A stretch of DNA of 64,000 nt, from assembly GCA_019752115.1 (NCBI GenBank), contig JAIEMN010000019.1, positions 248,001-312,000 of the forward strand, in the 5' to 3' direction. The notes below the pieces were generated by a model. The model saw only the letters and a list, made by a program, of their open reading frames with translations. It did not search any database and was not told the DNA's origin. This DNA is from Gemmatimonadaceae bacterium (lineage in GTDB: Bacteria > Gemmatimonadota > Gemmatimonadetes > Gemmatimonadales > Gemmatimonadaceae). Below are positions 18,537 to 48,735 of this stretch, piece after piece (positions within the stretch are counted from its first letter, which is position 1; each line of letters opens with the position of its first letter). The translations under genes and the position numbers were made by a program.

Positions 18537-19391
18537 TTAGCCGTCTTTCCGGTTGTAGTACCACATCAGGAACTGCAGTGCGGCGAAGAAGAGCGAAGAA
18601 ACTACGAAAGCGAGCTGAAGTATTGATTGAAAACTGAGCTTCCGCTTCTCAGGAATGCGAACCTCGTCGCCACTCTGAATGTCAATCTGTTCTAGGGTCC
18701 TTCCGTCCTTTACGAGGCGCGAGGATTCCTTGGCGCGCAATAGCACCTTTCCGCCTCGACTTACTTCAAGTTGCTTCAGATTTGCATCGGGGTTCGGCCC
18801 TCCAGCCAACATCACCAAATCACTCACTGGTCGATCAGGCGAAGCGTAGAAGTAGCCCGGGTTACGCACTGCGCCGAGGATCGCTACTCGAGTCAAAGCA
18901 CTCGTTCGAACAGATACCCCCCGCAAGTATCTCGCCACATGCGCACTCATGCGTTCGTCGAGTTCAGACCTAAGGACTCCTCGAAGTGAAATGTCCGGCA
19001 GACTGAAGACAGCGACCTTAAGGCTGTCTCGGACGGATGCCGTGTCTGAACGGGTCGAATCTCGACGCATTGTAATCAAAAACCGATCACCAACGTGGAA
19101 ATCACCAATTTCCAATCGGTTACGAAGGGCAGTCAGCTCCTCGGTCAGACGCCCTCGGGACTCACGCTTCAACCTCGTATCCGTGAGCGCGCGCTCCACC
19201 TCAGTCGCCCGCTGGGCGAGCTCTGCCCGTGTGGCACGCTGCGCTCCCGCCGGAGTTATGGCCTGACCACCACTCTTGCTCCCAGGAAAAACGAGGAGCG
19301 CTGCAACAACTACCGCAGGGATTGATGCACGCATGCGACAGGACGATGTACCTAAGGACTGAGCCAAAAACTTTAGGGCTTTGGAATTCAC
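18537..19391 (-). CDS. SLBB-domain polysaccharide export protein
   Basis: A 284-residue Wza/BexD-related envelope protein for polysaccharide secretion. A signal/anchor (residues of about 20-44) precedes a periplasmic helical part, a poly-export-like stretch (FHVGDRFLITMRRDS) and an SLBB domain (VAILGAVRNPGYFYASPDRPVSDLVMLAGG). The C-terminus has a hydrophobic segment (ILQLAFVVSSLFFAALQFLM), unlike classical lipoprotein Wza; no lipobox is visible. The GTG start at 19391 shares GTGA with the stop of the upstream BY-kinase gene, which favours this start over ATG at 19334. Confidence 0.85.
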   Translation of the reverse strand: MNSKALKFLAQSLGTSSCRMRASIPAVVVAALLVFPGSKSGGQAITPAGAQRATRAELAQRATEVERALTDTRLKRESRGRLTEELTALRNRLEIGDFHVGDRFLITMRRDSTRSDTASVRDSLKVAVFSLPDISLRGVLRSELDERMSAHVARYLRGVSVRTSALTRVAILGAVRNPGYFYASPDRPVSDLVMLAGGPNPDANLKQLEVSRGGKVLLRAKESSRLVKDGRTLEQIDIQSGDEVRIPEKRKLSFQSILQLAFVVSSLFFAALQFLMWYYNRKDG

Positions 19392-21832
19392 GATTCCCGC
19401 CCGCGATTTAGCGCTGCTCTCTTGTCCCCCGGTTCCGAGATACGCGCCGGCTCTTCGTCATGGGCCGCATACTCTCGGTAGTAGGAATAGTACTCGTAGA
19501 CGCCTGTCAACTGGATCCCGTTCAGTACCGCGCCCATCACACGAACTGGCAAAGTGTCCACCACGGCCATCTTTGCCTTCGCCATCTTCCGATCCGTAAT
19601 TCCAGCCCGCAACACGAGTGCCATATTGCCGGTGGCCGTCGCGAGAGCGTAAGCATCAAAGCCCGCGCCAAGCGGCGGCGAGTCAACGATGACAACATCA
19701 TACTCTGCTGTCATCTGACCAATAAGCTGATTCAGGCGAGGAGTGGCCAACAACTCCGGAGCGCGACGACGACGCGCGCCGCCAGGCATAATCGTCAAGT
19801 TCGGGTGTGACGCCGTCGGTTGAAGTACTTCGGCAATCAGGGCAGTGCCATCGAGATATTCCACAAGTCCAGGACGAGTTTCGCATCCGAAAGTCTTTGC
19901 GAGTTCCCCCCTTCTAATGTCTCCGTCGATCAAAAGAGTTCGGGAACCGGCCTCGGCGAAACTCAAAGCTAAATTCGCGGAGATTAGCGATTTACCGTCA
20001 TTGGGACCCGGGCTAGTAATCGTCATGCAGAGAGGGCGTGATGGATCAGCAGCGTACCGTACATTCATGCGAATGGTACGAAACGCTTCTACCACCTGGG
20101 CCGCCTGATCTGCCTGACGACGCTTAACACGAGTGTCGATCACCGGTACGACCCCAAGAACGAATAAGCCGAGATCGTCTGTTGCCTGCTCCGGATACCT
20201 GAAGCGTTTGTCAACCTGATCCAGAAGAATTGCCAAGAACACGCCCAACGCGAGAGCCGCAGCGATTGCTCCGAGAATAATGACTGGCGCCGTGTTTCGC
20301 GTTGGTTTGAGGGGTGGAACCGCGGGACTGAGAATGCTCACATCGGGAATCGTCGCGGCTTCCGCCAACTTGGCTTCCGCCGCCTTTAGATTGAGATTGC
20401 GATACATATCAGCGCTCACTTCAACATTCCGCTTGAGTCGCTGCTCCTCGATCGTTCGGCTAGGAATGCTCTTGAGATCCTTGCTGCTCTTGTCGATCTC
20501 GGATGTGAGCGTTTGCTCGCGCAATCGCAACTGCGCTACATAGCCCTGCAAGGCAGCAGGAACCAGCGTGCTACGAACGCTCGCGAGTGCCGCCTGCTCG
20601 TCCCGGACTTGTTGGGCTTCATCAGTATAGGTCTCGCGAAGTTTCCGGAGCTTGTTTTCTCGTTCATTTTGTTCAGAGAGAACCTTCCGAAGGTTGTCAG
20701 CCGCCGGATCGGTCGCCGCAATCGGAACCGACAGCACCGCTTCCGCGGAGATTGGCGTGCCCGCTCGTGCTTGGTTCAGTATCCGCTCGAGACTCGTCCT
20801 GTCGCGGGAGTATGCGTCAGCCTGAACCTTGTCCCTGAAATAGTTTTCAAAGACAGGGCTGTTGGTCATTTCAATGCCCGGCTGGATCGTCTGCCTTTCG
20901 CTCGGTTCTGTAACCGTGCGAACGCGAAAACTCTCTAGAGCGTTCTCAGCTTCCGTAAGCGATCTTGCAGCATACTGCTGCTGCCCTTCGAGGATGCTCG
21001 CCTGATATGTGATGTTCTTCTTCTTCAGTGCTGTGGCCACTGCCACGAACTGCTCGACCCATGCGTTGAGAGTGGCCGCAGATCGCTGCGCATTCTCCCC
21101 TGTCATGCGAAGAAAAAGAAAGGACGAACCTTCGTTAAGCGTCATTCTGAGCTTACGGATCAACAGCTCGGACGCCTCTCGGGGCGTACGAACGGTGAAT
21201 TCGATGTCTTTCTTTCCCCCAAGTTGTTGAAGCGTTGGCTGCCACTGGAAGCCAAGCTGGCGACCGATAGAATCACCGACGATGCCTTTCTCGACTTCAA
21301 CTCCAGCCTTCAACGAAAGGACGTACCTGCCATTAGAGATCGCTATACGGTAATCTCCTGGTCGCAGGCGCTGCTGATCCGCGCGAAATCCACGGAACGC
21401 TGTGCTGTCACCATCGCGCTTGGGCTCAAGAAACAAGCCGAGATTCGTGACAACGGGATCTGCGATTGCATAGGATCGAAGAAGGTCTTGCCATCCGGAA
21501 GCCTTCAGAAGTTCCTCTGCCTGGATGGGTCCCCGCTCGCCCTTCCCGTCCCGATTGGTCCCCGTGCCCTGTTCGAGCAGGATTGTGGCACTTACCTCAT
21601 ACTCAGGCTCGATGAACTTGGTCGCCCCCCAACCGGCGCCCGCTCCCACCAACCCAAGCAATACGATCAGCCACTTAAAGCGCGAAACAGCCGCCCAATA
21701 GCGCTGAAGGGTAGGCCCCTTAGGCGTCGACGAATCATTGCCACCGTCCCAGTCCCCCTGCTGAACAAATTCCGGGGAAACCTCGGCGCCGCTCTCTCTT
21801 TGGCTGACGGATTGGATCTGCTGACCGGACAT
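19388..21832 (-). CDS. Wzz/Wzc-type polysaccharide copolymerase and tyrosine kinase
   Basis: An 814-residue inner-membrane protein controlling chain length and export. A first TM at about 53-70 and a Wzz domain are followed by coiled-coil and GNVR-like stretches and a second TM at about 515-535. A cytoplasmic BY-kinase comes last: Walker A SPGPNDGKSLIS near residue 610, Walker A' LLIDGDIRRGEL near 635, Walker B VVIVDSPPLG near 715, and a C-terminal Tyr cluster GVYEYYSYYREY. The ATG at 21832 is preferred; the open extension to 21988 is not conserved-looking. It heads the operon with the SLBB and sugar transferase genes, divergent from the sigma-54 regulator. Confidence 0.92.
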   Translation of the reverse strand: MSGQQIQSVSQRESGAEVSPEFVQQGDWDGGNDSSTPKGPTLQRYWAAVSRFKWLIVLLGLVGAGAGWGATKFIEPEYEVSATILLEQGTGTNRDGKGERGPIQAEELLKASGWQDLLRSYAIADPVVTNLGLFLEPKRDGDSTAFRGFRADQQRLRPGDYRIAISNGRYVLSLKAGVEVEKGIVGDSIGRQLGFQWQPTLQQLGGKKDIEFTVRTPREASELLIRKLRMTLNEGSSFLFLRMTGENAQRSAATLNAWVEQFVAVATALKKKNITYQASILEGQQQYAARSLTEAENALESFRVRTVTEPSERQTIQPGIEMTNSPVFENYFRDKVQADAYSRDRTSLERILNQARAGTPISAEAVLSVPIAATDPAADNLRKVLSEQNERENKLRKLRETYTDEAQQVRDEQAALASVRSTLVPAALQGYVAQLRLREQTLTSEIDKSSKDLKSIPSRTIEEQRLKRNVEVSADMYRNLNLKAAEAKLAEAATIPDVSILSPAVPPLKPTRNTAPVIILGAIAAALALGVFLAILLDQVDKRFRYPEQATDDLGLFVLGVVPVIDTRVKRRQADQAAQVVEAFRTIRMNVRYAADPSRPLCMTITSPGPNDGKSLISANLALSFAEAGSRTLLIDGDIRRGELAKTFGCETRPGLVEYLDGTALIAEVLQPTASHPNLTIMPGGARRRRAPELLATPRLNQLIGQMTAEYDVVIVDSPPLGAGFDAYALATATGNMALVLRAGITDRKMAKAKMAVVDTLPVRVMGAVLNGIQLTGVYEYYSYYREYAAHDEEPARISEPGDKRAALNRGRES

Positions 21833-22213
21833 TAGAAATGACGGGATGGGGATCAGGCGTAATGGTCTGACCTTAGACGGCCTAGGAATGTCGCTGGCAA
21901 CACGGTGCGGCGTAAGCGCACCGGCCACGCCGCAACAAAGCAACATTTGCGTGACGTTTTGGGACCTGTTGCAGTCATGAAACGCCAACTGTCGTGCAAA
22001 AGCGACGATTGGCGCTTGACTCCGGGCAGTCCTTGCCGTAATTCGCCCTGTTCAGGTTGGCCAGTCGCAGCCTCACTGCATCATTTATGTAGTGAGACAA
22101 CCGCACCTTGCCAGAGCGTCGCCTCAGCGCCGCACGGCTGTTGCCGGTGGGCATCACTGATCCAGCTGCTGAGCAGGACACACCGGCAGGCGAACGTTCT
22201 ACGCCGATACGCA
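21833..22213. other. Divergent regulatory gap of the EPS operon and the sigma-54 regulator
   Basis: This 381-bp gap separates wzc-like (minus) and the PrsR-like regulator (plus). It should hold promoters for both. GG-N10-GC sigma-54 cores were looked for on both strands; only a moderate minus-strand match was seen (22109-22124, 7 of 11 consensus bases, about 280 bp from the start). No gene is supported here. Confidence 0.4.
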
Positions 22214-23704
22214 ATGACCGATCCATTTCTGAGCGACTCCACCTCGAACGCCGTTCCAGACAAGGGAACAGGACTCCGCATCCTCGTCGTCGATGACGAC
22301 CGGACGCTGCGGGAAGGGTGCGCGTCGGTCCTCCAAATGGATGGGCATGCTGTCACCGCGACTGGCCGGGCCGAGGAGGCCCTTGAGCTGGTCAAGCGGC
22401 GCAAGTTCGACCTGGTGCTGGTGGACCTGTTCATGACCCCGGTCTCCGGGATGGAGATCCTCAAGGCGGCCGTCGAAGCCCATAAGGGCGTCATCGTGGT
22501 CGTCATGACCGGAAACCCCACGGTCCAATCCAGTATCGAGGCGCTCCGCGCCGGCGCTTGGGATTACCTCCCGAAGCCCTTCTCGGCGAGCCATCTCCAG
22601 GTGCTGGTTGGGCGGGCAGCGCACGCTGCGAACGCGAGCCGAGAGACGAAGGAGATCAAGCCGTCGGCGCTCATGACTCAGAGCGGTTCGGGCGAAAGCA
22701 TGGCGCTGCTGGGGGTGTCCCCGGCGTTCCGGAAGGCGGTGGAGCTCGCCCAGAAGGTCGCGGCCACCGACGCCTCGGTCATGATCTCGGGCGAAAGCGG
22801 GACGGGCAAGGAAATGATCGCCCAGTTCATCCATAAGCACAGCCGGCGCACCCAGCGCAAGCTGGTGCCGGTGAACTGCGCCGCTCTCCCCGACAACCTC
22901 CTTGAGTCGGAAATGTTCGGCTACCGGAAAGGCGCCTTTACGGGTGCCGACCGCGACAAGGCCGGCCTGCTCGAGGTGGCCCATCAGGGCACGCTGTTCC
23001 TGGACGAGCTCACCGAAATGACGATGCCGCTCCAAGCCAAGCTCCTGCGCGTTCTGCAGGACGGCGTCGTGCGGCGGCTTGGGTCAGAGACGCAGGACGC
23101 CGTAGTAGACGTGCGCTTCATCTCGGCCACTAACCGGGATCCACAGGAAGCGGTGCAGCAGGGGATCCTGCGCGAAGACCTCTTCTATCGGTTACGCGTC
23201 GTCCCCATCAAGCTGCCGCCCCTGCGGAAGCGCCTGGAAGACATTCCGTTGCTCGCCGAGTTCTTCCTGAAGCGGAGCTGGGAACGGCACCGGAGCAGTG
23301 GAGCGCCCGCGCCGGAGCTGGCCAAGGAAACGGTTGAATTTTTGCAGTCGCGACCGTGGCGCGGCAACGTGCGCGAGCTCCAGAACGTCATCGAGCACGT
23401 GGCGGTGGTGGCCGATGCCGACCGCCCAATCATGCCCGATGACATCCCGGTCTATGATGATGGTGGAGCGGCTCCCTCCGGTGACGGCGGGCTGCCAACC
23501 GGCATCATGAACGAGGCCTTCCACGTGGCCAAGGACAACCTGATCGCCCACTTCGAGAAGGAGTACCTTGGGCGCCTCACGGCCCGGGCGGGCGGCAACA
23601 TGTCCAAGGCGGCGCGTCTGGCCGGAATCGACCGCACGACGCTCTACCGCCTCATGGAGAAGCACGGGTTCAAGCGCGACGCGCTCTCCGGCGCCGCGGA
23701 CTAA
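22214..23704 (+). CDS. Sigma-54-dependent response regulator (PrsR/NtrC type)
   Basis: A 496-residue enhancer-binding protein with receiver (ILVVDDD, phospho-Asp in LVLVDLFMTP, Lys in YLPKPF), a sigma-54 AAA+ domain (GESGTGKE near residue 192, sigma-54 contact loop GAFTGA near 240, LFLDELTEM) and a Fis-type helix-turn-helix (MSKAARLAGIDRTTLYRLM). It should activate RpoN promoters by ATP hydrolysis when phosphorylated. In PEP-CTERM/exosortase loci of other bacteria the equivalent is PrsR, paired with kinase PrsK; no kinase is seen in this window. The start at 22214 matches the receiver boundary. Likely targets include the PEP-CTERM gene at 29849-30562. Confidence 0.93.
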   Translation: MTDPFLSDSTSNAVPDKGTGLRILVVDDDRTLREGCASVLQMDGHAVTATGRAEEALELVKRRKFDLVLVDLFMTPVSGMEILKAAVEAHKGVIVVVMTGNPTVQSSIEALRAGAWDYLPKPFSASHLQVLVGRAAHAANASRETKEIKPSALMTQSGSGESMALLGVSPAFRKAVELAQKVAATDASVMISGESGTGKEMIAQFIHKHSRRTQRKLVPVNCAALPDNLLESEMFGYRKGAFTGADRDKAGLLEVAHQGTLFLDELTEMTMPLQAKLLRVLQDGVVRRLGSETQDAVVDVRFISATNRDPQEAVQQGILREDLFYRLRVVPIKLPPLRKRLEDIPLLAEFFLKRSWERHRSSGAPAPELAKETVEFLQSRPWRGNVRELQNVIEHVAVVADADRPIMPDDIPVYDDGGAAPSGDGGLPTGIMNEAFHVAKDNLIAHFEKEYLGRLTARAGGNMSKAARLAGIDRTTLYRLMEKHGFKRDALSGAAD

Positions 23705-25139: not shown

Positions 25140-26297
25140 ATGCGGCCCGCATCGCTTGCCGCCGGTACAGCCGCAATGTGCCTGGTCGTGGTGACGATGG
25201 AGATCACCACACGCGTAGATGATTGGGCGCAGTTTGGCGTTCCGCTCTCCTCTCCTGAGACATCGCTGGCTGATCTTTTCACAGTTGACTCACTTGGCGC
25301 GCATGCGAAGCCAGGTACACAGTTCAAGCAGTTCAAGATCAATGGACTAGGATTTCGCGGCAGAGAGGTAAGTCCGTCAGAAATGAAGGGCACGGCCGTT
25401 GTCGTTAGCGGTGCTTCGGAGTCCTTCGGCCTGTATGAGACGGCCGGAAGGGATTGGCCGAGCCAACTTGCGGACTCTCTGGCTGCCACGTGTGGAGCGC
25501 AGATTCCGGTCCTGAATGCGGCATTCGCAGGCATGTCACTCCCGACTGTGATTCAGGACGTTCGGCTGCGAATAGCACCGTTACGACCGCGGGTCGGCGT
25601 ATACTATCCCACGCCGATGCAGTATCTGGAGGGCGATGCGCTGCCCCGGGCAATGGCGCCGCACTCGGGCGCGCCTAGGCCGCCTCAACAGCGGTTGCGA
25701 TTCGTACCGCGACTTCGAGATGCGCTCAAGCGCTCTACTCCGGAAGTAGCGCTGGACCTGGCCCGACGCATTTTGACCGCGCGTACGCGATCGTCTGCCG
25801 GCATCTCGGCGAGCGATAGAGCCGAGCCAGAAAGGCTCGCCGCTTTTGAGTCGGACCTAAGACGACTCGTTGGGGCATACCGGCAGGCCGGCATCGAGCC
25901 GATGCTCGCGGTCCATCAGAATCGCTTCCGGGAGAGTGACTCAGAGACAAGCCGGCGCCTGTTGACCGCCTGGGAACGCTTCTATCCTCGTTACACAGCC
26001 CGAGCTATCCTCAGCTTCGACAGCTTGGGCGGAGACGCCACCCGCCGCGTTGCCCAGGACAGCGCAGTGCACCTGCTCGACCCGGGGCCGGCGCTCGCCC
26101 GGTGGGACTCCGACAGGGTGTTTGCAGACTTCACACACTTTTCTGACCAAGGCGCTGCAGTCGTGGCCGGTGAAGCCGCCCGTATACTGAAGCCTGAGGT
26201 CTGTACCGGCGGTAACGCCTCCGCGCTTACCGTCAGGCGCACTCGCCTTAGTATTAAAGTATCGCCACTGAATCACTCCCCACCAAACGCATTATGA
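25140..26297 (+). CDS. SGNH-hydrolase-like protein, probable polysaccharide O-acetylation partner
   Basis: A 385-residue membrane-anchored or secreted protein with an N-terminal hydrophobic segment (LAAGTAAMCLVVVTM). Block I of the SGNH fold is seen as VVVSGASESFG, and the Asp-His pair is in FADFTHFSDQG near residue 345. These place the Ser, Asp and His triad of an esterase or acetyltransferase. With the MBOAT gene 2 bp upstream it probably finishes acyl transfer to exopolysaccharide. Its stop overlaps the gltA start as ATGA. Confidence 0.75.
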   Translation: MRPASLAAGTAAMCLVVVTMEITTRVDDWAQFGVPLSSPETSLADLFTVDSLGAHAKPGTQFKQFKINGLGFRGREVSPSEMKGTAVVVSGASESFGLYETAGRDWPSQLADSLAATCGAQIPVLNAAFAGMSLPTVIQDVRLRIAPLRPRVGVYYPTPMQYLEGDALPRAMAPHSGAPRPPQQRLRFVPRLRDALKRSTPEVALDLARRILTARTRSSAGISASDRAEPERLAAFESDLRRLVGAYRQAGIEPMLAVHQNRFRESDSETSRRLLTAWERFYPRYTARAILSFDSLGGDATRRVAQDSAVHLLDPGPALARWDSDRVFADFTHFSDQGAAVVAGEAARILKPEVCTGGNASALTVRRTRLSIKVSPLNHSPPNAL

Positions 26298-27655
26298 GCC
26301 AGCCGCCCCTTGCCTCCGATTCGCTGGAGCTCCGCGACAGCCGTACTGGTGCGACGTACAGCACCCCCATCAAGACGGAAGGACCGGAGGGCGACACGTA
26401 CGTGCGCGCCGCCGACCTGCGCCAGATCAAGCGCGACGCTGGCGAGTTCGGCATGCTCAGCTACGATCCCGCCTTCATGAATACGGCGTCATGCCGTAGC
26501 GCGATCACGTTCATTGATGGAGACAAGGGGATCCTGCGGTACCGCGGCTATCCCATTGAGCAGCTGGCCGAGAAGGCGACGTTCCTTGAGGTGGCCTACC
26601 TGCTGCGTAACGGTGAGTTGCCCAATCAGGATCAGTACAACACGTGGGTGCGCGACATCACGTACCACACGTACGTGCACGAGAACATCCGGAAGTTCCT
26701 GGAAGGGTTCCGGTATGACGCGCACCCGATGAGCATGCTCTGCAGCGCCACCGCGGCGCTGTCGAGCTTCTATCCGCAGGCGCGTGATATCCATGACCCC
26801 ATGCAGCGCTATATCAGCGTGGTGCGACTCATGGCCAAGCTCCCCACCATGGCGGCGTTCGCCTATCGCCATGTGAAGGGGCTACCGATCATCTACCCCG
26901 ACAACGAGCTGAGCTACACGGAGAACTTCCTCTCCATGGTAGCGCGTATGTCGGAGCCAAAGTACGAGGCCAACCCGGTCTTCGTGAAGGCGCTGGAAGT
27001 ACTGTTCATCCTTCACGCGGATCACGAGCAGAACTGCAGCACGAATGCGGTTCGCGCGGTCGGCTCGAGCCACGTCGACCCGTTCTCGGCGGTAGCGGCC
27101 GGCATCGCTGCCCTATTCGGCCCGCTGCACGGCGGCGCGAACGAGGCGGTGCTCCGCATGATCACCGAAATCGGCGACAAGAAGAATATCCCGGCCTTCA
27201 TCGAAGCCGTGAAGAGCGGGAAGGGCGAACAGCGCCTCATGGGCTTTGGCCACCGCGTGTACAAGAGCTACGACCCGCGGGCCCGAATCGTGAAGAAGCT
27301 GGCCGACGAAGTGTTCCAGCAGGTCGGCATGGACAAGGATCTTGAGATTGCGCTCGAGCTCGAGCGGATTGCGCTGTCCGATGACTACTTCGTCTCGCGC
27401 AAGCTTTATCCGAACGTCGACTTCTACACCGGCCTCATTTATCGGTCGATGGCGTTCCCGACGGACTTCTTCACTGTGCTCTTTGCCGTCGCCCGTGTGG
27501 CAGGCTGGCTCGCTCAGTGGGAAGAGATGATTCTTGACAAGGAACAGAAGATTGCTCGACCGAGGCAAATCTATATTGGACACGGCGAGCGGAGGTACGA
27601 AGATTCTCTCACAGAGAAGTTTCCACGCGCGCGAAAGGATAGTATACGAAAGTGA
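26294..27655 (+). CDS. gltA: Citrate synthase
   Basis: A 453-residue type II citrate synthase that condenses oxaloacetate and acetyl-CoA. Conserved His residues are in NCSTNAVRAVGSSHVDPFSA and MGFGHRVYKSYDPRA, and the catalytic Asp in NVDFYTGLIYR. Length and N-terminal strand fit the hexameric E. coli type. Its start shares ATGA with the SGNH gene and its stop shares GTGA with a glycosyltransferase, so it sits inside a polysaccharide operon. Codon use is closer to the GC-rich core genes than to the transferases after it. Confidence 0.96.
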   Translation: MSQPPLASDSLELRDSRTGATYSTPIKTEGPEGDTYVRAADLRQIKRDAGEFGMLSYDPAFMNTASCRSAITFIDGDKGILRYRGYPIEQLAEKATFLEVAYLLRNGELPNQDQYNTWVRDITYHTYVHENIRKFLEGFRYDAHPMSMLCSATAALSSFYPQARDIHDPMQRYISVVRLMAKLPTMAAFAYRHVKGLPIIYPDNELSYTENFLSMVARMSEPKYEANPVFVKALEVLFILHADHEQNCSTNAVRAVGSSHVDPFSAVAAGIAALFGPLHGGANEAVLRMITEIGDKKNIPAFIEAVKSGKGEQRLMGFGHRVYKSYDPRARIVKKLADEVFQQVGMDKDLEIALELERIALSDDYFVSRKLYPNVDFYTGLIYRSMAFPTDFFTVLFAVARVAGWLAQWEEMILDKEQKIARPRQIYIGHGERRYEDSLTEKFPRARKDSIRK

Positions 27656-29848: not shown

Positions 29849-30562
29849 TTAGGCGGCGCGGCGACGACGCTTGATCGCGACGAGACCCGCGAGACCCGCA
29901 GCCATCAGGGCATACGTAGAAGGCTCAGGCACAACTGACGTGTTCGCGAGGATACCGTCCGTCAGACCGTTACCCGTGACACGAATAGCAAGGGTGTTGG
30001 AGCCAGCGACACCGGCGGCACCATTGATGTTCAGCTCATACATATTGAGCCAGTTGGTACCGAACGGCGGCGGATTGTTGATGTTCGGCGTAAGGCCACT
30101 GAGGGAGAGCGCCGAACCATTGACGCTCCAGCCAAGGAACGTGTTGTCGAACGCGAAATTGCGCAGCCACAACGAGCTGAAGGCATTCGCCGACGAGAAC
30201 GTGCGATAGAACGTGTACTCAAAGTTGGCGTTCTCGTCGCGTAGCGAATTGTAAAGCGAGGCGTCAGCTTCGGCCGAGATGTAGTACGCACCGTTGACGG
30301 GAACGACAGCCCAACCGTTTGGCGTGGCCGTGACACGCATCGCCTTGGTCGAGACGCCAGCGCCAGTGAGGTTGCAGGACGCGGTTACGGCCGGATTCGA
30401 CGTCGTAAAGATTCCGGCATCTGGGGTGATGCGACGCACGCACACCGTCCAATCGTTATCGAAGCCGAGACCATCAATGCTGGCCCCGGTCGAGAAGCTC
30501 TGCGCGCCGGCCGTCGAGCCGAGCAGTGCAGAAGCAAGTACCAGACTACGGAACATGCGCAT
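29849..30562 (-). CDS. PEP-CTERM sorting-domain protein (exosortase substrate)
   Basis: A 237-residue exported protein with signal peptide (MRMFRSLVLASALLGSTAGA) and the C-terminal tripartite sorting signal: VVPEPSTYALM, a hydrophobic helix (AAGLAGLVAI) and a basic KRRRRAA tail. The exosortase at 41976-42941 would cleave at this motif. The mature part is beta-rich, Asn/Ser/Thr-rich and low in Lys, with no recognised enzyme domain. ATG 30562 is preceded by AGGAG at 8 nt. Upstream is a good sigma-54 promoter match. In other bacteria such proteins help form floc or biofilm matrix. Confidence 0.93.
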   Translation of the reverse strand: MRMFRSLVLASALLGSTAGAQSFSTGASIDGLGFDNDWTVCVRRITPDAGIFTTSNPAVTASCNLTGAGVSTKAMRVTATPNGWAVVPVNGAYYISAEADASLYNSLRDENANFEYTFYRTFSSANAFSSLWLRNFAFDNTFLGWSVNGSALSLSGLTPNINNPPPFGTNWLNMYELNINGAAGVAGSNTLAIRVTGNGLTDGILANTSVVPEPSTYALMAAGLAGLVAIKRRRRAA

Positions 30563-30612
30563 TTCTAAAGCTCCTAAGGTTTGGGGATTCAGCGAGTTCC
30601 GGAAGCATGCCT

Positions 30613-30628
30613 AGCAGTATCCGGGCCA
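30613..30628 (-). promoter_or_regulatory. Sigma-54 promoter of the PEP-CTERM gene
   Basis: Read on the minus strand, TGGCCCGGATACTGCT matches the RpoN consensus TGGCAC-N5-TTGCT at 9 of 11 defined positions, with the invariant GG and GC spaced by 10. Predicted start is near 30602, giving a 40-nt leader with AGGAG before the ATG. Confidence 0.75.
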
Positions 30629-30638
30629 AGCCAGCAAA

Positions 30639-30654
30639 TGGCCTAGAGATAGCT
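30639..30654 (+). promoter_or_regulatory. Weaker divergent sigma-54 candidate
   Basis: TGGCCTAGAGATAGCT on the plus strand has the GG-N10-GC core and matches 8 of 11 consensus positions. It points to the GT-C gene at 31080 but would leave a leader of more than 400 nt. Confidence 0.35.
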
Positions 30655-30710
30655 AAGCCTTTCTAAAATAATCGCTTCCTCTTTCTGGAATATCATAGAT
30701 CACCCCCGGA

Positions 30711-30728
30711 TGTTGCGTATACGCAACA
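30711..30728. promoter_or_regulatory. Perfect 18-bp palindrome, candidate enhancer site
   Basis: TGTTGCGTATACGCAACA is a perfect inverted repeat centred about 100 bp upstream of the minus-strand sigma-54 promoter GC element, the usual distance for an NtrC-type activator site. It may be bound by the regulator at 22214-23704. Confidence 0.55.
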
Positions 30729-36885: not shown

Positions 36886-38625
36886 TTACTTGCGATACCA
36901 CATGTATGCATGTGTGTAATAGTAGCTCTGGTTGAACTGCTTTGATCCTGCGATCCAAGCGTTATCAACCATCGATGCGGCAATAGAATCTACTCGAGCA
37001 TTTCGCTCAGCACGAATCGACGGACTGGTAGCATGTTTCGCGCCAAAAGCGAAGCCCACTAGAATTAGACCATTGAGATCAGTCGGTATCTGTCCAGCCT
37101 CCGACTCGGGTATCGCCGTACATGACTTGTTGACGTAACGGAAGGCGCCGACAGAGGCATTCCATTGCGTTCTCCACATATACTCCGTCGACGCCGCGAC
37201 TGCAGTGATTACAGACGGGTCCTGATTGATGCGCTCGTAGTACTTGATCATCGCATCATTCAACATTCCTGCCATATAGTTCGATTGGCCGCTACACCAA
37301 TTAGGCCATATGTAGCTCCCATCTTGCTGGATGGTAGAAATTGTCTTTCGCACATAGTCATCAAGTCTCGTGCGCCAGGGCTGGCTTCGATCGCCTAGCT
37401 CCCAGCTCAGTAGCGACATAATTACCATGCGTGCGGTAATTCGACCTTCCCCAACAGAGACAATATCAGGCGTATACACCTCCGTTAGCCTCGTGGCAGA
37501 CCTAACCACAGCGGCAACAGCTGAGTCATCACCAGCCAACCAATGCGACAGTGCAAGGCCCTCCATCTGAGCCCAATGAGGAGATGGCAGATAGTTGTTC
37601 GCCTCGATGTACTTTCGGCGATAGTCGCGCGCCAAAGCAGTCGCTCTGAAGAACCACTTCGGATCACCAGATCTTGCCCAGTATACGTAGTGATTTAGCG
37701 CGCGATCATAGTAGTTGGCCGTTTCCCAAGCAGGGCCCATCTGTAACCAAAACCCATCGGCATACGATACGAAGTTCGATTCGTACTTTGGGTCGAGCGT
37801 CTCAGCTACCGGCACAGCAGGTCCAAAAAGGCCAGTACTAATCAGGTATTTCGGATCAGTTGGAATCAACGCCAGCGCGGAGTCCGCAGTCACATTTGAC
37901 CATGATGGTTGCGGAACCGTACTCGGTAGAATCTGCAGTTGTCCCAAGACGGGCGCGGTACCGGCATCAACGGTGGCCTGTATGGCAATCGCTCGCAAGC
38001 TGTTGTCGTCGTATTGTCCACTCAGCGCCCGCGTTGCCACGGGCACGTCTTTCCCCCCCAAGACGAGCTTTATGTTCTTTAGCTGGCCTAGCGTTATCGA
38101 GCCTTTGGGAAACGGAATACCGTTCGACACGATTGCGGTTCTTGGCGAACCCGAGTTCCTGACGAGCTGCACCTCAATGGATGTCACCGGGACCGGAGAG
38201 TTCGGAGTGGCGGTCACGACCCGGACGGTGCGCGTATCTGCGCAAGTGGTAGTGGCAGCCGTCAATGTCGCCTCACCAGTGGAAACTCCCACGGCCGAAG
38301 CGCTGCCCACGGCCTGCAGGACGCTCGGATTCGAAGACGAAATCGTTGGCATCGATATCCGCTGTCTTGAATTGAGCCGGCTCGCGAACTGCAGAGTGAT
38401 CGATTGTCCCACGATTACCGAATCACTGCTTATCGACAGAGCGTTGCACTTTGGAAGGCTGGAAGCGGCCTGACTTGCTGGGATATAGGCTGCTGTCTGC
38501 TTCGGAGGCACTAGCAGATCGACCGAATCGCATCCTCCGGCCAGAATCCCACAGACACTGAGCACTAGCATTCTCGGACCCCTACGAGAGGCGATTGCAA
38601 AGACCAGCGTTTTGTGGAGTGACAT
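36886..38625 (-). CDS. Lipoprotein with Big-like domain and alpha/alpha-toroid-like region
   Basis: A 579-residue lipoprotein (lipobox LAGGC near residue 32). Residues of about 60-140 look like a bacterial Ig-like domain (VIVGQSITLQFAS ... GEATLTAATTTC). From about 270 on it is helical and aromatic-rich (ALNHYVYWARSGDPKWFFRA, HWAQMEGLALSHWLAGDD, YIWPNWCSGQSNYMAGMLND), which suggests an alpha/alpha toroid as in polysaccharide lyases and epimerases. It may trim or modify the polymer in the envelope. The catalytic residues are not identifiable; this is an inference. Confidence 0.6.
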   Translation of the reverse strand: MSLHKTLVFAIASRRGPRMLVLSVCGILAGGCDSVDLLVPPKQTAAYIPASQAASSLPKCNALSISSDSVIVGQSITLQFASRLNSRQRISMPTISSSNPSVLQAVGSASAVGVSTGEATLTAATTTCADTRTVRVVTATPNSPVPVTSIEVQLVRNSGSPRTAIVSNGIPFPKGSITLGQLKNIKLVLGGKDVPVATRALSGQYDDNSLRAIAIQATVDAGTAPVLGQLQILPSTVPQPSWSNVTADSALALIPTDPKYLISTGLFGPAVPVAETLDPKYESNFVSYADGFWLQMGPAWETANYYDRALNHYVYWARSGDPKWFFRATALARDYRRKYIEANNYLPSPHWAQMEGLALSHWLAGDDSAVAAVVRSATRLTEVYTPDIVSVGEGRITARMVIMSLLSWELGDRSQPWRTRLDDYVRKTISTIQQDGSYIWPNWCSGQSNYMAGMLNDAMIKYYERINQDPSVITAVAASTEYMWRTQWNASVGAFRYVNKSCTAIPESEAGQIPTDLNGLILVGFAFGAKHATSPSIRAERNARVDSIAASMVDNAWIAGSKQFNQSYYYTHAYMWYRK

Positions 38626-39988: not shown

Positions 39989-41311
39989 CTAGTTACGCAA
40001 CGGTTGCGTTAACGCGGGAGCGCTTGAGCTCTGCATCGTACGATATCCTAGGACGCATAATCCCCACAGCCCGAACCATGCTGCAAAATAGGCGAAGCTG
40101 AGGAAAAACGAGCTGACGGCGAGCCCCACCACCGCGCCAAGTAGCTCTGGCCTCTGAAATGGCTTGCGCTCTGTCGGAATACTCAGGTTTACGAGCCTGA
40201 ACGAACTTGCTATTGATGCTACTACGAGAGAGAGGAAGAGTAGACCACCTGGCAACCCAAGCTCGGCGAAAGCCTGAAGATACGCATTGTGTGCATTCGA
40301 CCACTTTCCTTTCTTGCCAGCCTGTTCAAGTGTCACACCTTCGGCGACTTCGAAGGCTCCTGCGCCGACTCCTACTATAGGATGCGCTCTAACGTAACCG
40401 AGTCCCCGGCGCCACACCTCTACACGTCCGTAATAGGACGTCTGGTTGTAGTCCTCAGAGACGGATTTGAGTGTCGCGAGCCTTTCGAAGTAACTAGCTG
40501 GTGCTGTGGAAACTAGAAGTACCGCTGCGGCCGCGAGGAATGCCATACCAAGAAGGCGCTTTTTCCCGATAGAAAAGAGCACTACTATCGCACAGGCACT
40601 TGCGATACCGATCGAGCCCCCGCGTGAGTCCGTCTTGATTAGGACCCAAGCAGTCAACGCCAGCACCAAAGCGCCCGATACTCGTCCGAGTGCCCGCGCG
40701 CGAAGCATATACCCAAGCGCCAATGGAGCTGTCATCGCCATGACTGCTCCGAGATCGTTGGGATCCATTGAATTGGGAATTTCTAGCCTGCCGTATGTTA
40801 CCTGGCCAAATCCGAGCGCAGCAACAGCAAGGCCAGCACCGCCAGACATGAACAGTAACAGCAACTGATCTACTACAGCGGTTCTTGGAGGAAGGCCCCC
40901 GAGTGTCAATGTCATCAGCGCGAGGGGCAGGAGACCTGTCGCGGTCTGAAACGACAAACTTTGATACATCGACAGCGGTATCGTCGTTATCGCCCAACCG
41001 GTATATGCTAACACCATTAGCAGCTGCGCATTGCTCACGCGTGGCGCACGAGCCTCAGCTGGAAGTCGAAATACCTTGAAGATGGCGATTGGCGCGAGCA
41101 GTAGCGCGGGACGGAAGAAGCTCGGTATCGAAGGGATCAGAAAGTGAAGCTTGTGCACAACGACGTAGACGAGCGGATACAGAATCCAGAGAAGACCTGC
41201 ATTCAGCTTCTGCCCCTGCGCGGCACGGGCCCGCCGATAGCCTAATCGCCGCGATCGTCCATTGGGGTGATTGGGAGCTATGACTTCCCTATGGACCGAG
41301 GCGACTGTCAC
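39989..41311 (-). CDS. O-antigen ligase/polymerase family protein (Wzy/WaaL-like)
   Basis: A 440-residue polytopic protein with about ten TM segments and a large periplasmic loop containing YYGRVEVWRRGLGYVRAHP, GVGAGAFEVAEG and NAHNAYLQAFAELGLPGG, the Wzy_C signature with its conserved His. It likely polymerises repeat units flipped by Wzx. The GTG start shares GTGA with the epsI stop. Polymerase and ligase activities cannot be separated by sequence alone. Confidence 0.87.
   Translation of the reverse strand: MTVASVHREVIAPNHPNGRSRRLGYRRARAAQGQKLNAGLLWILYPLVYVVVHKLHFLIPSIPSFFRPALLLAPIAIFKVFRLPAEARAPRVSNAQLLMVLAYTGWAITTIPLSMYQSLSFQTATGLLPLALMTLTLGGLPPRTAVVDQLLLLFMSGGAGLAVAALGFGQVTYGRLEIPNSMDPNDLGAVMAMTAPLALGYMLRARALGRVSGALVLALTAWVLIKTDSRGGSIGIASACAIVVLFSIGKKRLLGMAFLAAAAVLLVSTAPASYFERLATLKSVSEDYNQTSYYGRVEVWRRGLGYVRAHPIVGVGAGAFEVAEGVTLEQAGKKGKWSNAHNAYLQAFAELGLPGGLLFLSLVVASIASSFRLVNLSIPTERKPFQRPELLGAVVGLAVSSFFLSFAYFAAWFGLWGLCVLGYRTMQSSSAPALTQPLRN
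39995..40009. repeat. Inverted repeat at the end of the polymerase gene
   Basis: ACGCAAC-G-GTTGCGT overlaps the last codons of the polymerase gene. Its arm contains the GTTGCGT half-site of the palindrome at 30711-30728, but in everted order. Confidence 0.5.
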
Positions 41312-41979
41312 TGATTCGCCTCGTCCCTTGGACCTCGAGGCATGACACTATCGGCGACGGCTACCGCAACAGCGGCAAGTTGGCGGCCCCGCTGCTTTGC
41401 AAACCCCATCGCTTTTTCGTCGTCTGTCCGAGACTCCGCATTAAGCGGGATTACAAGTCGGACGAGCGCCTCCTCCGTTCTTCCGAACAGTGCCGCATCC
41501 CTCAACAGATCCCACTTTACGCGGTACTCACTGCTCTCCACCCTTCCGCGGCCTTGGTACCAGTACAATACCAGAGCTCGTGTACCCTTGTTGGCCAAGA
41601 GCACCTCGTTGACGATCGCCGGAGTAACCGACTTCAAGGGTACGCGCTCACTACTGATGATTTCCCAGCCAGCCCCTGGGAGGCAATTCTTGGGTGAGTG
41701 AATCGCTTTCCCTTGCACTTGGCGGTCGTAATAGCCGATGTAAAGCGTAACCGCCCCGAGCTGCGGCACGGAGTACTCTCGAAGGAGGTAGTGTGACATG
41801 CCGGCTACTTTGCGCTCTTCGGCAGCGATCGGTATGTCCTTACCCTCTACTCGGTCGAGGACCCGAGCAACTGAGCCCAATGTTCGCTGTGGCTGCATGC
41901 TCTTCTGCGGACGCATTCCGCTAATGAGCAGAGCACCGGAGCCGAGCACGACCGCAGGGATCATACCTAGGAGTTTCAC
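41308..41979 (-). CDS. epsI: EpsI-family exosortase-associated protein
   Basis: A 223-residue protein with an N-terminal membrane anchor (MIPAVVLGSGALLISG) and the family hallmark YYDRQVQGKAIHSPKNCLPG, including the conserved His and Cys. EpsI accompanies or is fused to exosortases of the EpsH/XrtA type; its exact role in sorting or EPS processing is unsettled. The GTG at 41979 is preferred: it shares GTGA with the exosortase stop and has GGAGG 5 nt upstream. The open extension to 42027 would overlap the exosortase by 52 nt. Confidence 0.92.
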   Translation of the reverse strand: MKLLGMIPAVVLGSGALLISGMRPQKSMQPQRTLGSVARVLDRVEGKDIPIAAEERKVAGMSHYLLREYSVPQLGAVTLYIGYYDRQVQGKAIHSPKNCLPGAGWEIISSERVPLKSVTPAIVNEVLLANKGTRALVLYWYQGRGRVESSEYRVKWDLLRDAALFGRTEEALVRLVIPLNAESRTDDEKAMGFAKQRGRQLAAVAVAVADSVMPRGPRDEANQ

Positions 41980-42941
41980 GCCGTCCTCCGGGTCGGCAGT
42001 AGCCTTTCTGCGCCACCCAACGCCCATGCGATCATTGATGTGATCAGGAACGCGGCGCCAAACATGACCATACCCTCGCTAGTGTGCATGAAGCCTTTCC
42101 CGGCTTCAGGGCTTACAAAGAGCACGAGGAATCCTGTAAGAAAAACGCGTACCCCGTTCACCAGAATAGCAACGGGTATGGCGACGCACACCAACAGTAG
42201 CCTTGTCGGCCACCTATCAAGGAACATCGCTCCGAGCAGGACGCTCAGACTGATTAGCGCAGTCAAAGATCGCAGCCCACTGCAAGCTTCCGCCACAAAC
42301 AACTCTTGCCCCGGAATCCGAATCACATTCCCGTTCATCAGCACCGGAATCTGACGCCACTTGAGTAGCGCAGCACCTAGCTTGGACGCTGTGAACTGCA
42401 ACGGCAACGCGACCGTGTTCAGAATCACTTCCGGAATCGGAACGGAGAGAGACACCAGCGTGAACGGCAGCCACCAATGCAGCAACTGCCGGAAGCCCGC
42501 GTACCACACCACGAGCCCCGCCAGCGCCATGATCATCGAGCCGCGCATCACGAACAGCTCAGCGGCGAGATCGGCAGCGTAACGGAACAGCACCGCAGCA
42601 ATCAGAATCGCGATGCCCAGCCCGCGCTGCGGCTTGGCGTCGTCGCGCACGCCACTCTTGAGCGCGAACCACAGCGACAACGGCGCGAGCAGAAGCCCAT
42701 GGCCGGAGTTGGGGTCGTTCCACCAGGCATCAGCCAACAGCTTGGCCGGCTTGGCGAAGAGCAGCACGAACATCAGGGCAGTGAGCCCGTGTGCGGCGAG
42801 ATCAACCGGCGCCTGCGCGCGCAGACCGGCGACGGCCTTCGCAATCAGCTCCCGCGGATCGTGCTCCGCGGGCCGATTGGCGGCCGTGGCCGTACTGCTG
42901 GAGGCACCCGAGGGTGCAGTGGACGATGCGGGAATGGTCAC
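41976..42941 (-). CDS. Exosortase (EpsH/XrtA family)
   Basis: A 321-residue, eight-TM cysteine transpeptidase-like enzyme that recognises the PEP-CTERM signal. The catalytic Cys is in LFVAEACSGLRSL (about residue 217), the Arg in NGVRVFLTG (about 262) and the His in MHTSEGMVMFG (about 283). WWNDPNSGHGLLLAPLSLW is the family N-terminal loop. The hydrophilic N-terminus of about 50 residues is extra. It heads the epsI-polymerase-transferase operon. The only substrate in the window is the PEP-CTERM protein at 29849; others are expected elsewhere. Confidence 0.95.
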   Translation of the reverse strand: MTIPASSTAPSGASSSTATAANRPAEHDPRELIAKAVAGLRAQAPVDLAAHGLTALMFVLLFAKPAKLLADAWWNDPNSGHGLLLAPLSLWFALKSGVRDDAKPQRGLGIAILIAAVLFRYAADLAAELFVMRGSMIMALAGLVVWYAGFRQLLHWWLPFTLVSLSVPIPEVILNTVALPLQFTASKLGAALLKWRQIPVLMNGNVIRIPGQELFVAEACSGLRSLTALISLSVLLGAMFLDRWPTRLLLVCVAIPVAILVNGVRVFLTGFLVLFVSPEAGKGFMHTSEGMVMFGAAFLITSMIAWALGGAERLLPTRRTA

Positions 42942-43076: not shown

Positions 43077-46790
<3,714 letters not shown>

Positions 46791-46806
46791 ATCTTGAAAG
46801 CTATAT
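46791..46806. promoter_or_regulatory. 16-bp divergent intergenic region of metH and the MTHFR fusion
   Basis: The two ATG codons are separated by ATCTTGAAAGCTATAT. TATCTT (46790-46795, plus) and TATAGC (46805-46800, minus) could be -10 boxes for nearly leaderless messages; both -35 regions would lie in the opposite coding sequence. There is no room for a SAM or cobalamin riboswitch. Confidence 0.4.
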
Positions 46807-48735
46807 ATGACCACTGTTGCTGAGCACCCGACGCCCGCGAATTCCGCGGGCCACAACGCGCCGGCTGCATCGCCGCGCGCCGCCCTTCTTGAGCGCCTGC
46901 TGGCCCCCGACGAAGTGGTCATGTTCGACGGCGCGATGGGCACAATGCTCTATGCCAAGGGCGTGTTTATCAATCAGTGCTACGACGAACTCGTGCTTCG
47001 TAGCCCCGATCTCGTACGCGAAGTCCACGCGGCCTATGTGAAGGCCGGCGCAGACGTGATCGAGACAAACACATTCGGGGCGAACCGCACCAAACTCACG
47101 CAGTATGGCCTCGAGGGGCAGGTCACGCAGATCAATCGACGCGCGGCCGAGGTGGCGCGTGAGGCGGCGGGCGAGCAGCGACTTGTCGCTGGTGCAGTCG
47201 GCCCACTCGGCGTACGGCTGGAGCCCTACGGGCCAACAAGCCGTGCAGAGGCGCGCGAGATTTTCCAGGAACAGACGGCGGCACTCAAAGCCGGTGGGGC
47301 CGACTGCTTCATCCTCGAGACCTTCGCGGATCTGGAGGAGTTGGAGCAGGCGATTCTTGCGGCGCGCGCGGTAGACCCCACCATGCCCGTCATCGCTCAG
47401 GCGACGGTTGGCCCTGAGCAGCGCACGGCGTTCGGCGCCACTCCCGAGGATGTGGCCCGCGTTCTCGACAAGTGGGGAGTGGACGTCATCGGGCTGAACT
47501 GCTCAGTGGGCCCGCAGACGATTCTCGAGGCCATCGAACGCATGGCCGCGGTTACCGATCGCAAGCTGTCCGCGCAGCCCAACGCCGGTATGCCGAGAGA
47601 CGTGGGCGGGCGAAGCATGTACATGGCCAGCCCGGAGTACATGGCCACGTACGCGCGCCACCTCATTCAGGCCGGTGCCAAGATCGTTGGCGGGTGCTGC
47701 GGAACGACACCTGATCACATCAAGGCGATGGTGGAGGGCGTACGTCCGCTCGCCCCGCGCACGCGAGTCATTCCAGGCGCCACGCGGGAGTTCGCAGCGG
47801 TGACTGGCGCGCCGGCCCCTGGCAAAGAGCCTGTGCCGCTCGCGGAGCGTTCGCGCCTTGGGGCAAAGCTCGCGGCCGGGAGGTTTGTGACCAGCGTAGA
47901 GATCGTTCCACCGCGCGGCGTGGATACTGCCAAACTCGAGCAAGACGCGGCCGCACTCGCCAAGGCTGGTGTTGACGCCATCAACGTGCCTGACGGGCCT
48001 CGTGCGCAGAGCCGAATGGGCGCTATTGCGACGAGCCTGATCATTGAACGGCATGGCATCGAGGCCGTCACCCATTACGCGTGTCGCGATCGCAACCTGC
48101 TCGGTATGCTGAGCGACCTGCTCGGCGCATCCGCGCTTGGGCTGCGGAATATGCTGCTTATCACTGGTGATCCACCGAAAATGGGTCCGTATCCGGATGC
48201 GACCGCCGTGTTCGATATTGATGCGATCGGACTCACCAATCTCGTTCGGAAGTTGAATCGTGGACTAGATCCGGGAAACAACCCAATAGGCGAGCCAACC
48301 AAGTTCGTCATTGGCGTCGGCGTGAATCCGGCGGCGATTGACCCCAGTCACGAGTTGAGGCGATTTCGCTGGAAGGTGGAGGCTGGCGCTGAGTACGCCA
48401 TTACCCAACCGGTATTCGATCCTTCGCAGCTTGAAAGTTTTCTTGTGCGCTGTGAAGATACCCGAATTCCGGTCGTCGCTGGCATTTGGCCTCTGGTATC
48501 TGCTCGCAACGCTGAGTTCTTGGCGAACGAAGTCCCTGGCGTGACCATGCCGGCTGAGATCTTGGATCGAATGCGATCAGCGAACGACAAGAGCAAGGAA
48601 CACGCCCTTGCGGAGGGTATCTCCATTGCTCGAGAGATGCTCGCTCGAGTGAAGGGCGCTGTTCAGGGCGTACAGGTGAGTGCCCCTTTTGGCAAGATCG
48701 AGTATGCGCTTGAAGTCTTCGGGGCGCTTTCATGA
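46807..48735 (+). CDS. Homocysteine S-methyltransferase / methylenetetrahydrofolate reductase fusion (YitJ-like)
   Basis: A 642-residue bifunctional protein. Residues 1 to about 320 form a homocysteine methyltransferase domain with [22 protein letters not shown] and the zinc motif [10 protein letters not shown] near 295. Residues of about 350-642 form a MetF-type FAD domain ([41 protein letters not shown]). MTHFR makes methyl-THF, the methyl donor of the divergent metH. As the methyltransferase domain keeps its Cys ligands it may also methylate homocysteine itself. No separate metF is in the window. Confidence 0.93.

Follow-up and report, generated by a model that had tools for sequence, protein, structure and literature searches.

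A predicted sigma-54 promoter and palindromic operator recurring at PEP-CTERM genes in relatives of Gemmatimonas, and their probable NtrC-type regulator

The 64,000-nucleotide stretch of Gemmatimonadaceae DNA analyzed here (the window) very probably carries the sigma-54-dependent promoter control region of a PEP-CTERM regulon, with an operator read by the NtrC-type response regulator encoded at 22214-23704. On the comparative evidence, many PEP-CTERM genes in Gemmatimonas relatives share a DNA switch, and the palindrome and predicted promoter upstream of the focal PEP-CTERM gene are one instance of it. The sequence comparisons described below give good support to the wiring, the predicted operator, and the probable regulator.

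The focal gene (29849-30562, minus strand) encodes a PEP-CTERM surface protein of 237 aa that scores over cut-off for both TIGR02595 and PF07589. The sigma-54 (-24/-12) promoter predicted before it, TGGCCCGGATACTGCT (30613-30628, minus strand), has the form GG-N10-GC, with its -12 element at 30614 giving a predicted start at 30602 and a leader of 40 nt to the ATG at 30562. The predicted upstream activating sequence, TGTTGCGTATACGCAACA (30711-30728), is a perfect 18-bp palindrome centered ∼117 bp upstream of that start. Both elements lie exactly where the first-pass annotation had placed them, and our reading of the promoter geometry, start, and leader agrees with it. Taken singly, each could be a chance occurrence in the window: allowing up to two mismatches, it contains 12 copies of the -24/-12 pattern against 12.0 expected from shuffles, and ∼0.24 perfect 18-bp palindromes of any kind are expected in 64 kb. 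The focal elements owe their significance to position and degenerate recurrence, not to single-site statistics. Searches of the own genome found TGTTGCGTATACGCAACA exactly once, plus one match with a single mismatch that is a chance occurrence; widening the search to two mismatches likewise added chance matches alone, and the pattern TGTNGC-N6-GCNACA gave four sites, only the focal one being at a PEP-CTERM promoter. Such searches for the exact palindrome, or for copies within two mismatches, are misleading because the operator is degenerate. The recurrence check suggested in the first-pass annotation accordingly failed for the exact string, which is unique in the genome, and succeeded for the degenerate operator, which recurs at PEP-CTERM promoters.

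Sigma-54 sites were scored with the model TGGCACG-N4-TTGCW (threshold 16.9) upstream of 154 PEP-CTERM genes, 14 from the own genome and the remainder from congeners and three sister genera (same genus or family). High-scoring sites are concentrated 45-100 nt upstream of the start codon, and the bins from -100 to -41 contain 44 sites of at least 16.9 on the coding strand versus 3 on the opposite strand. The focal site belongs to this class enriched at -45 to -100 and, at -66 from the start codon, is typical of the set. The genome also encodes rpoN (428.7 bits, over cut-off), and these observations support the proposal that the PEP-CTERM gene has a sigma-54 promoter. A strong sigma-54-like site, TGGCGCGAAACATGCT, also occurs at 37030-37045 (minus strand), close to where an unclassified ORF has its 3' end; it lies 240 nt upstream of an acetyltransferase gene, and a good operator upstream of it was not found.

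For 60 sigma-54-linked genes, a de novo palindromic search of the 170 bp preceding each promoter returned an 18-bp motif, TGTnGCgt..acGCnACA, with a log-likelihood of 166 against 30-35 in 12 dinucleotide shuffles. Shuffles served as the control, reversed sequences being uninformative since a reversed palindrome is still detected. The motif is the palindrome of the first-pass annotation with degenerate positions. When each genome in turn was left out of training, 46 of the 60 promoters carried a match of at least 8 bits versus 4 of 179 coding controls (Fisher p ∼7e-32), with the qualification that the promoters are not fully independent, some being orthologous between congeners. The focal palindrome scored 18.4 bits under the model trained without its own genome. 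Box centers lie mainly 90-150 bp upstream of the -24 T across the 60 promoters, and the four promoters of the own genome appear unrelated outside the motifs on inspection. When the genomes of 30 congeners were searched with a strict pattern of half-site and promoter, it was no more frequent than its reversed control. At the level of sequence, the comparisons establish the promoter class, the operator class, and their coupling, and the recurrence of the degenerate form before other PEP-CTERM genes bears out the suggestion of a palindromic enhancer.

Promoter and operator models trained without the own genome were then combined in a scan of 850 kb, ∼16% of the 5.17-Mb draft genome, picked to cover most of the PEP-CTERM contigs. 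The top four promoter-plus-palindrome pairs in these 850 kb (27.0-32.2 bits; next pair 22.3) are all upstream of PEP-CTERM genes, with the focal pair ranking first, and the pairs at ranks 5 and 7 are likewise upstream of PEP-CTERM genes. Six operator sites in the 850 kb score 14 bits or more, and three of these are at PEP-CTERM promoters. Among the ∼16 PEP-CTERM genes of the genome the pair is clear at four, or present at six including weak cases, and a clear pair is absent from ∼10 of the 16. A third conserved element of the class AAYGRCTTAG (log-likelihood 48 versus 28-35 in shuffles) is found in many PEP-CTERM promoters, including all four of the own genome, where it occurs before L015, L019, and L021 as well as the focal gene. 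The focal copy, AAAGGCTTAG (30653-30662, minus strand), lies between operator and promoter, 34 nt upstream of the -24 T; the element is mainly found 34-37 or 44-47 nt upstream of that base, two positions one helical turn apart.

The regulator gene (22214-23704, plus strand) is ∼7 kb from the focal PEP-CTERM gene. Its product combines a receiver with an AAA+ domain bearing GAFTGA and a Fis HTH, the domain make-up of an NtrC-type enhancer-binding protein, and its true start is 22214, the listed GTG at 21905 belonging to an over-long ORF. Close orthologues are nearly all on contigs named as Gemmatimonadota, some as Gemmatimonas, which marks the own genome as Gemmatimonas-like. Three predicted operator boxes of 18 bp each, CGCCGCAACAAAGCAACA (box A, 21928-21945), TGTTGCAGTCATGAAACG (box B, 21967-21984), and TGTCGTGCAAAAGCGACG (box C, 21990-22007), lie upstream of the regulator gene, between it and a divergent polysaccharide gene that starts at 21832, and are conserved across 17 aligned species. 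They are followed by a conserved sigma-70-like promoter of the regulator gene (22016-22044, plus strand; TTGACT-N17-TAATTC), which reads TTGAC-N17-TATTTC in the alignment. Using a matrix learned from PEP-CTERM promoters only and a threshold of 9 bits, we found 72 boxes upstream of the regulator gene in 19 congeners against 1.6 expected, with every one of the 19 having a box. Of 11 other orthologues, most of them outside the genus, 9 likewise have boxes upstream, and the 25 genes of all other groups of sigma-54-activator-type regulators combined gave 2 sites. In NtrC-type systems, autoregulation is usually marked by a cluster of sites upstream of the gene for the activator itself. The 22214-23704 regulator is thus probably autoregulated and, judged by this box cluster, most likely the reader of the operator, in line with the first-pass suggestion of an NtrC-type reader 7 kb away. 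The C32 regulator was considered as reader because several genomes have PEP-CTERM genes 15-30 kb from it, and was rejected: it has no boxes upstream of its own gene. It resembles PilR, its neighbors being a putative kinase and pilin-like genes. The own genome has a probable PilS/PilR pair beside two pilin-like genes (L288, 2502-7539), with no operator boxes before PilR.

The gene divergent from the regulator (19388-21832, minus strand) encodes an exopolysaccharide chain-length/tyrosine-kinase protein (Wzz/GNVR/AAA). Near the start of an SLBB polysaccharide-export gene, TGATGCACGCATGCGACA (19323-19340) scores 16.2 bits on the operator model and may serve the polysaccharide operon as an operator located within a gene. 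The polysaccharide locus also contains, in tight gene order, a citrate synthase gene (26294-27655) flanked by an MBOAT/DltB-like acyltransferase gene and an ORF of unknown function on one side and by glycosyltransferase genes on the other. PEP-CTERM proteins need an exosortase, and the single exosortase detected in the genome (41976-42941, minus strand; 8TM_EpsH over cut-off, closest to XrtD) is encoded 11 kb from the focal gene, together with an EpsI-family exosortase-associated protein (41308-42027, minus strand). At 43077-48735, with the exosortase genes to one side and a PEP-CTERM-type amidotransferase gene to the other, a gene for full-length methionine synthase (MetH) lies head to head with one for a bifunctional homocysteine methyltransferase/methylenetetrahydrofolate reductase.

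The promoter and operator could be real and the operator be read by another sigma-54 activator, with the boxes at 21928-22007 serving the divergent polysaccharide operon instead; we consider this unlikely. The genome does encode several other activators of the sigma-54 type, and in two congeners operators are kept although no orthologue of the 22214 regulator was detected: G010, which has an exosortase, and G008, in which an exosortase was not detected either. Against this, the boxes cluster solely before the 22214 regulator among all activator groups, a pattern that extends outside the genus, and most regulator-less assemblies lack an exosortase as well (7 of 8 congeners; Fisher p 0.001). Assembly gaps are the likely cause of the absent regulators because the congeners concerned mostly lack the exosortase too and are mostly incomplete drafts; G010 is an exception to this account. 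Three congeneric genomes (G021, G028, and G029) are complete. The regulator is also found in relatives where PEP-CTERM matches were not; it therefore does not serve PEP-CTERM genes exclusively, and its regulon is wider or older than them.

In the arrangement we favor, the 22214-23704 regulator would bind the 18-bp palindrome TGTnGC-N6-GCnACA ∼115-160 bp upstream of the start and loop to sigma-54 RNA polymerase held at the -24/-12 site, where its AAA+ domain would open the promoter. It would also bind boxes A, B, and C, which separate the regulator gene from the divergent exopolysaccharide operon, an arrangement that makes autoregulation probable and coupling between polysaccharide and surface protein possible; polysaccharide synthesis may in this way be coupled to surface-protein supply through the regulator. 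Among the window genes checked no kinase was seen, and we infer that the regulator is phosphorylated by an unlinked or missing kinase.

The first-pass annotation had suggested that the PrsK/PrsR wiring of other PEP-CTERM bacteria may hold here. Haft et al. (2006; PMC1569441) described a sigma-54 motif and activator box before PEP-CTERM genes, the box being recognized by PrsR acting with PrsK, which are usually adjacent in Proteobacteria, and found the motifs only in that phylum. The architecture is the same in both cases: single PEP-CTERM genes have long upstream regions that contain a -24/-12 motif and, further upstream, an activator box, and genes for exosortase and polysaccharide functions lie near that of an NtrC-type response regulator (PMC1569441). 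TIGR02915, the PrsR model, is moreover the regulator's best-scoring model in NCBIfam. Its score of 369 bits is nevertheless 133 bits under the cut-off of 502.6, which no congener reaches, and is exceeded by the scores of several unrelated regulators from the own genome. PrsK (TIGR02916) gave no match in 30 congeners at E 1e-40, a search in which the control genomes were likewise silent. The operators differ in both sequence and position: the proteobacterial box is 17 nt long with a TTTACA end and lies ∼63 nt upstream of the promoter motif (PMC1569441), whereas the palindrome described here has 18 bp and lies further upstream, ∼80-140 nt from the motif. TTTACA, in either orientation, occurs in 4 of the 60 promoters versus 2.7 expected and is not enriched. 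The regulator would work like PrsR, but its sequence does not support membership in that family; the claim of membership is largely refuted, and it is very improbable that the system is a genuine PrsK/PrsR one in the sense established for Proteobacteria. Chance resemblance of the palindrome and the sigma-54 match, a reading that draws on neither element being beyond chance within the window alone, retains a negligible probability: the comparisons refute it through recurrence in held-out genomes, the fixed geometry, and the first rank of the focal pair in the composite scan.

We regard it as an even call whether Gemmatimonadota evolved or re-wired their own sigma-54 PEP-CTERM circuit, combining an autoregulated, kinase-unlinked regulator, a nonproteobacterial operator, and coupling between exopolysaccharide synthesis and exosortase-substrate supply. 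If they did, the regulator would be older than its link to PEP-CTERM genes because it and its boxes occur in relatives without a PEP-CTERM match. We found no description in the open literature of a sigma-54 PEP-CTERM circuit in Gemmatimonadota, and the present one would bring to a second phylum a logic previously described for Proteobacteria alone, the operator being different and the regulator probably so. Operator and regulator are predicted precisely enough for testing, and the operator model lists a regulon and opens a route to the signal controlling exosortase substrates and the floc or biofilm matrix.

NtrC and NifA enhancers are palindromic boxes ∼100 bp upstream, bound by activators with a Fis-type HTH, and the activator gene is autoregulated. 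The predicted operator resembles them in its upstream palindromic boxes and Fis-type HTH activator and differs in sequence and spacing, the NifA box being TGT-N10-ACA and the present one TGT-N12-ACA. The RpoN-dependent PEP-CTERM gene pepA of Aquincola tertiaricarbonis, which has a mapped start, carries -24 TGGCAC and -12 CTGCTT elements (PMC9850573), and the focal promoter shares the -12 element as CTGCT. That organism, however, is a betaproteobacterium with PrsK/PrsR and an enhancer of the earlier predicted type (PMC9850573). In Desulfovibrio vulgaris, which belongs to a different phylum, DVUA0057, a response regulator encoded in a polysaccharide operon, bound predicted PEP-CTERM promoters by DAP-chip, a validated binding motif not being reported (PMC3333781). 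We assign the circuit predicted here to a known kind, of which it would be a variant belonging to Gemmatimonadota.
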